From positions 4,059,001-4,123,000 of the forward strand of contig NC_088926.1 of the NCBI RefSeq assembly GCF_038396675.1: 64,000 bases of DNA. Direction: 5' to 3'. This DNA is from Hydra vulgaris (lineage: Eukaryota > Cnidaria > Hydrozoa > Anthoathecata > Hydridae). The position numbers were made by a program, and so were the translations under genes. A model generated the notes under the pieces. That model saw only the letters and a list, made by a program, of their open reading frames with translations, had not been told where the DNA came from and searched no databases. Shown piece after piece: positions 8,695 through 14,186 of this stretch (the stretch's first letter is position 1; the number at the start of each line of letters is the position of its first letter).

Positions 8695-8778
8695 CACGGT
8701 GGTTTAGTAATGGACATTTATTATGCGCATGCGTTATATTCTGCTCAAATGTTGATAAACAATAATGTCCGCAAGTAA
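8695..8778 (+). repeat. Left terminal inverted repeat and subterminal motif
   Basis: Heptamer CACGGTG at 8695-8701, a 10 bp spacer, then the inner block at 8712-8736, which contains the palindrome CGCATGCG. AATGTCCGCAAGT at 8764-8776 repeats, in inverted form, part of the inner block and also occurs at 14153-14165. Confidence 0.85.
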
Positions 8779-9209
8779 ACAAAGAATTACTAATAAAGTT
8801 GCTAAACTTCAAATTAGATTTATTTGTAGATATTTCTAAATAGTCTATAAGAAATGATATCAAAACAATACTTTAGTTATGGTCTGTGTCATCAAAGGTA
8901 TCATTTATATAATTTTACAAAGAGAATAGAAGTGGGACTAAAGTGAAACTAAGCTGTTTTTTAGGCGAAGTTTAACTTGTGCTTACATTGTAGTCTATAT
9001 TCATAAGTTTTAAATTTTTTAGTGACTACCTTGATTTTTTTTTTCTAATATAAAAGTTCGTGAATTGTTTAAAGCAAAAATCAAAAACCGGTTACTTTTT
9101 TTTGTGATAATATAATGCTTTTAAAGATTAGTAAGTTTTCTTTTTATTTGAAAGGTTAAAAATACTGACAGAAATATTATATAGGCTTTAATACTGCCAT
9201 TTATTTTCT

Positions 9210-12200
9210 TTAAATCATTTTGCAGTATTTTATCGTATTATTTTTTGTATCTACAATTTTTCTTTTTCTTGGCTGAGCTTTTTTTTGGTATTTTTTTACA
9301 GTGGGGTTGTTTTTTATGAAATGCTCATTCATCATGCTTTTTAATCTACGCACTCCTTTCATATGGCAGTAGGTACTCTTCATGCGGTTGATTTCAGCAT
9401 GAAGACTTTCTCCACCTTGCTCTCCATAAGTACCTAGTCCTACTCCCCATTTTCTAATGAAAGGTAATGCATGGTACTCCAGCAAATGAAGCTTGGGTGT
9501 GATTGAAGCATTTGGCCAGTTTTCACGGAAGTACTTCATGAAATCTTTGATTCGATTTTCTGTAACCAATAATATGTATATATATATATATATATATATA
9601 TATATATATATATATATATATATATATATATATATATATATATATATATATATATATATATATATATAATATATGCATATATATATTGCTGGATCATCAT
9701 GAAGAGTCCTACTCTTCCTGATGATCAAGCAATGGTGAAACTTAAAGTTGAAGAAAAAAGATAGATAAGTGTTTCTTACTAATTTATTGCTCTGTTCTTT
9801 AAGAACATTAAGCACTCTTTTGGCAGAACACAATAAATAGAGAAAAATAATTTTCTCTATTTATTGTGTTCTGCCAAATTATAACATATGACATACCAAG
9901 GTCCTGTTTGTTATCTTCATTGAACTGATTGCAGGAGTTAATAAGCTTGTGACATATTCCAAACTTAGAGAAGAGTACCTTGAAGTTTTTACAAACTTCA
10001 ATAGTTTCTCTGTGTATATCAGTGTCGTTGAACCCAAGTTCAACCACAAGGTTTGGTATAGAGTTGCAAAGTTCAAGGATACTTTTCTCCTAATTTAATA
10101 TATAAAATAATTGTGAAATATGTATTATATATAGTAACTGTTGTTAATTATGTATCTAGTTATGTCTAATGATGTTAGTATTAGCCATCTATTCCACTTA
10201 CACACACACAGAGACACACACACACGCACACATATATTTATACTGTATTTTACATTTAAATTTACGTAGAGTTTGTTTTTAGTAAAAAGTAGATTTTATA
10301 AATGTAGGAAATATGTATTAGATATTATTTTACCTTTAACATTTTGTTAACATGATTACCAACAAAACTTTTCCCGTGATATGCTTGTCTTTGTACTCCT
10401 AATGAGTTAAGTACCTTATCAAGTTTGTTTACAAGTGGCCCAAATGATTTCTTTATATGGTCTGCTTCAAGCAGTATTTTCAGTTCTGAGATCTATGATT
10501 AAATATGTTCTTAAGATAAATTCAAAAAAACATAACCAATGAAACAAAACTTAGATATTCCAATGTATAAGATTCTCAGCTGTATTATTCCGGGTTTAAT
10601 TACCAATCTAAATTAAATATTTTTAGTAAATAATAAAAATTAAAGTTGTTACCTGTTCTTTCTTTTTCTTTTCAAAGTGAATCAGATGACGTTCAAATAC
10701 TAATTTAATTTTTTCTTCATTTTCAGGGTTAAAAATTATTTGCATTTCAAGTGCTTCTGTTATAACACGTGTTTTATCTTCAAGTGCTTGAATACTTATT
10801 TGAAGTTGATTTATTTGGCGCTGGTGCTCTATATATGCATTAAATTCCTCACAGTCAAGTGTTTGGTTGGTTACTGCCATTCGACCTGCAATTTTTATGT
10901 CAATTGTGTGACAAGAGTCTTCTAACATGTTGAAAAACTTTAAGTATATACCAAGTGAGATATGTAAAGCAGGAACTCCTATCTAATAGTAGAAGAAAAT
11001 TTATATTATTATTTACAATTGCATACACCACCATTTACATTTACCCCACCAATAACTTGTATTGTATTCTATTGAATAAACGATTATGTGAATTTGCGAA
11101 GAATTCCTAATAAATAAAATCAAAATAATGTGAATAATAAATAAAAGCAAGGCACCTGATCAAGTGGCACATTGAACAACCGTTGGTCAATAACATTGTC
11201 ACATAACTTGGCAAACTTGGGATCTGCACCATGGTTGTTAAATTTTGCTAGAGATAAATCTAGTGTCTTTAGTGATCGCATTTCAATGTTATCGTTAATT
11301 GGATTTGACATTCCTTGACTTTTTATGTTGCAAAACAGGCATGAGTGTCTACCTAAAGTAATTGAACAAGTTTGTGTTAAGAAAGCAAAATAAATCATGT
11401 TGCATGTATTTGGCCCAGATGAGTTTTTTTAAAGAAATCTGTATTAAATATGTACTTACCATTTGCACCAGTTATTCCATAAATTGCACACAAGAATTCA
11501 TAATCACCGAATACAAATACACGAATCTGCTTTTCTCTAAAATTGAACAGAATTAAATTATTATACATTTTTTTAAAAAGAAACTATAATCTATCATAAT
11601 CCTGACAATTGTGGTAAGAAACCAAGAGTTGATGATTTTGTTTATGTCAAATATTGTTTGGATGTTTTTGAATTTTAGTGTGCTTGGATAATTGAATTAT
11701 TTTGTTGTTTGTAATATGTTCTTACTTCCAGATCATTTTTTGCAAAAAATCGATTTCTGATGTAAATCTTGTCAATGAAATTTTCAAATTTGTGGTATAA
11801 TCTTTTGCCTCAAATATATTAAATATTGTTGTACTTGTTTTGGCATTAGGCTTTTCCAAATTCGCTACTTGATAAAACATTTTGAACGAATCACCTCCAT
11901 AGTCACCTCCTATTTTTATATGGATTTCGTTGTCTTTAATCTTGTTGTATAATAAGAGGTTGTTGCTAAAATTATAACAAGAAAAATTAATTTTTGTTTT
12001 ATAGTATTGCATTTAATTTATTGTAGTATGTTAAAGTATTTTTTTAAAAAGATTTGTTTGTACCTATCTAGTCTATCTAGTACATTTGTTATATGTCCTT
12101 GTAGATTTTCAATATATGCACATGGCAATTCCTTGATTTCATAAGAACCTTTTGAATCTTTTTTTTCAACCATAAATGGAGCGTTTTTAACAATAAGATC

Positions 12201-13721: not shown

Positions 13722-14134
13722 TTTTATGTGTTTTTTTATTGCTAAAATATAAGATTTAATGTACAAAATTTTTAAACTTAAAAAAGTAACCGGACTCTGA
13801 TTTTTTTTTTATTATAAAGTTAAAACCATCTTTTTTTAAAATATATATATCTTTAAAGCATAAAAATTCTAATAAATGCTTAATTATTAAGTTTTAGTAG
13901 TAAGGATGACCATAAAATAATTTTCGACTTTCCTGCGTATTTTATCACATAAAAATTAATAAATTAAGTATTTCAAATAAAATATGTTTTCCTTGGCCAC
14001 ACATTTTATCAGTTTATAGTTTATATCTGATTTATACATCTTCAAAGCAATGATATGACCTTTTTTATTAGGTTACGGTAAAAGACCATTACAAAAAAAA
14101 AATCAAAATTACTATGTTGTTGTTGTTTTTAAAG

Positions 14135-14186
14135 TAACGCATGCGCATAATAAATGTCCGCAAGTGCTTAAAATTAAACCACCGTG
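14135..14186 (-). repeat. Right terminal inverted repeat
   Basis: Reading inward on the minus strand: CACGGTG at 14186-14180, a 20 bp spacer, then the inner block at 14159-14135. The spacer is exactly 10 bp longer than at the other end. Its first five bases (GTTTA) match the left end. Confidence 0.85.

Follow-up and report, generated by a model that had tools for sequence, protein, structure and literature searches.

The window, a 64,000-nucleotide stretch of Hydra vulgaris DNA (NC_088926.1, positions 4,059,001 to 4,123,000), carries on its minus strand a Chapaev-type cut-and-paste transposon of 5,492 bp with CAC...GTG ends, spanning positions 8695-14186. The sequence CACGGTGGTTTA is read inward at either terminus and AGTC stands on either flank (14187-14190 and 8691-8694), so that the extent proposed by the first-pass annotation coincides with the termini exactly. 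The element is composed of the following features:

8695..14186, minus strand: complete element of 5,492 bp, delimited by the ends CACGGTGGTTTA...TAAACCACCGTG and by the duplicated flanks
14187..14190: AGTC copy of the target-site duplication on the 5' side of the gene
14175..14186, minus strand: terminal block of 12 bp at the end with the long spacer
14135..14159, minus strand: inner 25-bp block, long end, 15 bp from the terminal block, starting at position 28 from the end
13425..13721, minus strand: opening half of exon 1, coding for the RAG1-like zinc module of the N-terminus (Chapa domain); 99 aa and then a stop in the window copy
12793..13446, minus strand: exon 1, second half, C3HC4 RING and following finger, ending in GGPR, in another frame in the window copy
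12372..12664, minus strand: exon 2
12064..12276, minus strand: exon 3
11726..11965, minus strand: exon 4, whose IGGDYGG motif is taken to hold the first catalytic D
11460..11536, minus strand: exon 5, whose FGDYEF motif is taken to hold the second catalytic D
11156..11352, minus strand: exon 6, C(2)C motif CLFC
10653..10982, minus strand: exon 7, LH motif (PALHISLG)
10334..10492, minus strand: exon 8
9897..10089, minus strand: exon 9
9210..9559, minus strand: exon 10, H(4)H (HLLEYH), catalytic E (GEQGGESLH) and stop
8712..8736, plus strand: inner 25-bp block, short end, 5 bp from the terminal block, starting at position 18 from the end
8695..8706, plus strand: terminal block of 12 bp at the end with the short spacer
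8691..8694: AGTC copy of the target-site duplication on the 3' side of the gene

On the minus strand the gene model has ten coding exons of 77 to 929 bp, interrupted by nine GT...AG introns of 95 to 337 bp, and splicing of the nine introns is in frame, giving 901 residues and a final stop when counted from the RING half of exon 1. The first-pass annotation had proposed eleven exons with ten GT-AG introns in a single frame; nine of these introns do join in frame, but the additional one in exon 1 and the single frame do not hold, as no intron separates the N-terminal module (13721-13425) from the RING half (13446-12793), and the two overlap in different frames. Exon 1 is one open frame of 320 aa from an ATG in four other copies (L010, L011, L015 and L019) and of 318 aa in the diverged L039 and L040, the last ~ten residues of these frames being intron; open frames are also listed for L024 (348 aa) and L031 (345 aa). 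Among six copies aligned to the window over eight of the ten exons, the length of exon 1 differs by one base in four, by two single-base gaps and one 12-base gap in C10:43.7M, and not at all in C6:9.36M. The window copy thus has a frame break within exon 1 that it shares with C6:9.36M; the break in the window may be an assembly error in a homopolymer. The earlier description of the element as near-intact and near-functional is therefore not borne out for the window copy. Its presumed youth, on the other hand, finds support in the K2P distances to the six copies, which range from 0.005 to 0.027 (0.5-2.7% divergence over eight of the ten exons, gaps ignored).

We searched the genome (911.5 Mb, 15 contigs) for further copies. 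A 23-base word from the Hydra spliced leader occurs in it 222 times (control 0), and the genome fits Hydra vulgaris AEP. The N-terminal module has at least 150 matches with 35-100% identity (150 of 415 candidates scored), some of which are two pieces of one place. The 5'-CAC...GTG-3' termini that are a hallmark of Chapaev (CMC) elements are present at both ends of the window copy and, among the ends listed, CAC starts 19 of 23 gene-5' ends and all seven gene-3' ends, the exceptions being L014, L022, L018 and L020. The target-site duplication is 4 bp long, within the 3 to 4 bp characteristic of Chapaev, and is exact in 16 of 17 two-ended copies:

Window family, seven copies: AGTC, AAAC, TTAT, AATC, CTTT, GAAA, TCAT (exact)
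Relatives: L039 GCAA, L040 TCGG, L041 GAGG (exact)
L075 TTAA, L076 CAGA, L077 TCAC (exact)
End pairs: L065/L066 CTTG, L069/L070 TTTA, L073/L074 AAAT (exact)
L051/L052: CAAA versus AAAA (three of four bases, one mismatch)

No common target sequence is apparent by eye across the duplications of these 17 copies. Within the DNA examined, the long end of L042, the short end of L043 and the other end of L044 were not found; a candidate end pair for L044 was discarded as a chance match because the long end of this element lies elsewhere.

The three motifs named beforehand for the DDE core, GGDYGGD, FGDYEF and GEQGGESLH, all lie on the minus strand in exons that join in frame. According to PMC4079192, the hallmarks of a Chapaev transposase are a DDE triad and the motifs C(2)C, LH and H(4)H. 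The window copy, L040, L042, L075 and L077 keep all three motifs together with D, D and E, the other copies examined being incomplete across the motif exons (L076, for instance, has no match to exons 2-5). These four relatives share the exon layout of the window copy, and their core proteins are 46-53% identical to its own. The Pfam comparison suggested for the core returned no match named Chapaev, and the Chapaev (CMC) assignment, drawn from the sequence, rests on the termini, the 4-bp duplication and the C(2)C, LH and H(4)H motifs. The core does match Pfam DUF1280 (1.3e-16 in the window; five of five core members, best about 1e-16). This family spans the first part of the Chapaev core (exons 2-4, 11726-12664), which raises the possibility that DUF1280, annotated as of 'unknown function', may be transposase-derived.

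Each end of the element is composed of a terminal 12-bp block and an inner block of ~22-25 bp, separated by a spacer of 15-16 bp on the gene-5' side and of 5 bp on the gene-3' side. Counted from the gene-5' end of the window copy, the inner block of 25 bp, GGACATTTATTATGCGCATGCGTTA, begins at position 28; counted from the gene-3' end it begins at position 18, an offset of 10. In subfamily F2 (L039 and L040, whose N-terminal module is about 50% identical) the block sequences have changed and the offset is still 10; in subfamily F3 (L075, L076 and L077) the distances to the end of GCATGCG are 50 and 39 bases, an offset of 11. For subfamily F1b the long end is that of L038/L043, and we infer its short ends to be those located 2-3 kb from F1b-like N-terminal modules (C3 and C5) because of this proximity. 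The 10-11 bp offset is thus read from single elements of three diverged subfamilies, and by inference in the fourth, F1b.

The same dichotomy appears genome-wide. The two-block pattern of the window family has 38 genome matches (control 0), with a spacer of 15 in 21 and of 5 in 17, and no other length was found when spacers from 0 to 30 were scanned across the genome. With the less strict combination of CACGGYRRTTY and GCATGCG, 12-42 bases apart, 221 matches were obtained (control 3). Gaps of 20-22 account for 104 of these (one of 20 and one of 22, leaving 102 at gap 21) and gaps of 31 or 32 for 105 (by subtraction); the remaining ranges are sparsely populated, with four matches at 12-20, nine at 22-30 and one at 33-42. 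Altogether, 207 of the 221 matches fall in two spacing classes and 14 outside. Among the matches listed, 100 ends were measured, of which 43 measure 39, 27 measure 49 and 26 measure 50, the others being 46, 48, 48 and 52. At least 19 pairs of ends face each other within 12 kb, every one of them made of a long and a short end (with long members of 46 and 52 in two of the pairs); there is no short-short pair among the 98 short ends listed and no long-long pair among the 57 long ends listed. The long end lies on the gene 5' side in every copy that shows both gene and end. In this respect the ends of the Hydra elements resemble recombination signals (RSS): they come in two kinds, about one helical turn apart in spacing, and are paired one of each.

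One possibility, less likely than not, is that Chapaevs with a RAG1-like front follow a 12/23-like rule of their own, in which the transposase synapses a long (15-16 bp) with a short (5 bp) end. An alternative, whose chances we put a little short of even, is that the 10-11 bp asymmetry is a passive relic of an indel in one ancestral end, inherited by all subfamilies and ignored by the transposase. The subfamilies descend from a common ancestor, as their shared exon layout indicates, and the copies are therefore not independent and amount to few trials; exact search patterns are in addition biased to well-preserved copies, and the short spacer is GTAAT in three of the four subfamilies (F1, F1b and F2), F3 alone differing (1/5 identical). 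Against such passive inheritance, only 14 of the 221 pattern matches lie outside the two spacing classes, and the long spacers have drifted in sequence but not in length. The long spacers of F1 or F1b are identical at 5-7 of 15 positions to those of F2 or F3 and still measure 15-16 bp. With one representative each, F1, F2 and F3 share 5-6 of 15 long-spacer positions, versus 16-19 of 22 in their inner blocks. F1 and F1b are closer in the long spacer (10/15 identical), and the F1b inner blocks at the short end match those of F3 and F2 at 14-15 of 22 positions. As far as sequence comparison can tell, drift at a constant length favours a function for the spacing, with shared descent as the counter-argument. 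If the pairing rule is true, a one-helical-turn asymmetry would have been maintained across diverged subfamilies in a cnidarian, and RSS-like asymmetric signals would not be peculiar to RAG and ProtoRAG but would accompany a broader range of transposons with CAC ends.

Unequal ends have precedents outside Chapaev. RAG signals have 12/23 spacing, and the P element, which makes 8-bp duplications and has a THAP DNA-binding domain, encodes a transposase of a family other than Chapaev. The ends of ProtoRAG have spacings of 27 and 31 bp, with unlike pairs preferred (PMC8289069). The Drosophila P element resembles the Hydra element in its unequal spacing, with 9 and 21 bp between the terminal repeat and the transposase site, and has been likened to 12/23 signals (PMC7776569). 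Among the open-access papers listed for this subject, no title deals with end spacing in Chapaev, a weak negative given that most subscription journals fall outside this scope, and the unequal Chapaev ends may be new.

The front half of the protein resembles RAG1. The CRICG...HP..MC..C module, the C3HC4 RING and the following finger, all recognized in the first-pass annotation, are encoded on the minus strand, and the match to a RAG1 N-terminal profile on which that annotation had made its reading depend was obtained both with Pfam and with PDB profiles. The window N-terminal half scores 25.3 bits against Pfam RAG1_imp_bd (cut-off 23.3), the whole exon 1 of L010 remains under the cut-off (19.0), and the family matches nine of nine N-terminal segments at E up to 1 (best 1.9e-9). 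As a single sequence, the window N-terminal half finds the RAG1 chain 21wb at E 2.3e-4. A 13-row profile of exon 1 compared to PDB sequences places RAG1 on top (E 5.2e-11) and aligns its positions 22-234 to RAG1 144-372 in one co-linear stretch, with module, RING and finger in order; note that the lead of RAG1 is small, the runner-up being the BRCA1 RING at 1.4e-10. The nine-row N-terminal profile is the cleaner test, RAG1 alone lying under E 0.01 in the PDB (best 3.6e-10, chain 21wb). The RING is matched by zf-C3HC4 at 5.3e-7 in the window copy and in 13 of 13 exon-1 members (Pfam). AlphaFold2 gave a poor model of exon 1 from the 13-row alignment (mean pLDDT 42). For the GGPR that is conserved where exons 1 and 2 meet, we also considered a relation to the RAG1 nonamer-binding domain and dropped it, because the RAG1 match stops at residue 372, before that domain. 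In the Pfam comparison, zf-AD was also listed on the window N-terminal module (13425-13721), with 21.9 bits, below the cut-off of 28, and for seven of nine N-terminal members at E up to 1; judging from these scores, there might be a relationship between the ZAD domain and the zinc module at the N-terminus of RAG1.

The idea that the non-core half of RAG1 has lived in a transposon other than Transib is right but already published: the Chapa (RAG1 N-terminal) zinc domain and a RING were described in two Chapaev subgroups by Kapitonov and Koonin (2015; PMC4411706), who cite Kapitonov and Jurka (2007) for Chapaevs with both and include Hydra magnipapillata (HM) among the species of their Figure 2 legend. 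These Chapaevs have the same Chapa domain, then RING, then Chapaev core, and the Hydra element very probably belongs to the same group, on a comparison with their published description; unlike the Hydra element, they are given no unequal end spacing in the available sections of that article. The Aplysia N-RAG-TP, also carried in a transposon, shares the RAG1 N-terminal-like sequence, of which it entirely consists (PMC8355894), whereas in the Hydra element a full DDE core follows. In RAG1 itself the zinc module of the N-terminus is likewise followed by RING and finger, and RAG1, ProtoRAG and Transib share with the Hydra element CAC termini and bipartite asymmetric ends. The resemblance does not extend to the duplications, which are of 5 bp for RAG1 and Transib versus 4 bp in Hydra, nor to the inner part of the ends, an RSS nonamer in one case and a GCATGCG-like block in the other.

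Kapitonov and Koonin proposed one ancestral full-length transposase for RAG1 and Chapaev (PMC4411706). It is also possible, although we would not bet on it, that a RAG1-like front was instead joined repeatedly to different cores. The disparity between the two halves would fit such shuffling: the front matches RAG1, and the five-row core profile, searched to E 5, matches no chain in the PDB, RAG1 included, the core being recognized as DDE by motif and showing in this comparison no sequence match to the core of RAG1. The core may, however, have diverged past sequence detection, and it does contain C(2)C and H(4)H motifs, C(2)C and H(3-4)H being common to Chapaev, Transib and RAG1 (PMC12730594). 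Domestication of the transposon as a host gene, which would make the locus a RAG1-like gene of Hydra, is suggested by its multi-exon structure and conserved zinc modules but is very improbable in view of the intact termini and duplication, the many near-identical dispersed copies and the frame break in the window copy.

Our preferred reading, to which we give a probability of about 0.88 with the proposed roles of protein and ends included, is that the window contains a recent, now frame-broken insertion of a Hydra Chapaev (CMC) cut-and-paste family. The DDE core (exons 4-10) would cut at the CAC termini and insert with a 4-bp stagger, the duplication itself being observed. The RAG1-like N-terminal zinc module and the RING would form an accessory half, with dimerization and self-regulation as its probable roles. 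Ubiquitin transfer has been reported for RAG1, and by analogy the RING half could perhaps do likewise. At the bipartite ends, the CAC-terminal 12-bp block would serve for cleavage and the inner GCATGCG-centred block for binding. The synapsed pair would be asymmetric by about one helical turn, because the observed spacers are of 15-16 bp at one end and 5 bp at the other, a spacing with a putative role in synapsis. RAG1 cuts the antibody genes of vertebrates, and the source of its non-core half is a question that bears on how adaptive immunity arose. A young family with a RAG1-like half on a different core, present in a laboratory animal, would allow direct tests of what the N-terminal module and RING contribute to a transposase, and its unequal ends offer a test of whether 12/23-like pairing predates or extends beyond the RAG lineage.

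Some copies retain the front and lack most of the core. In L036, L037 and L038 the N-terminal module is 67-71% identical and both catalytic-aspartate parts are absent: L036 and L038 are without exons 2-6 (L043 being the same place as L038), and none of exons 2-6 was found in L037. In this group the N-terminal module and RING are joined to parts of exons 7-10, and by their sequence the three copies look like internally deleted derivatives. P elements have truncated repressor proteins, and by analogy the Hydra copies could act in a similar way or could be passive deletion derivatives.

Finally, several repeats lie in and next to the window copy. Intron 9 (9560-9896) contains an (AT)58 array at 9572-9686. 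Around 9820-9880 it also has TTGGCAGAACACAATAAATAGAG as a close inverted repeat, a sequence present in both orientations in L002-L006 and L008 as well. Positions 8347-8592, just past the element on its 3' side, are taken up by 6.2 tandem copies of a 40-bp unit (97% matches).
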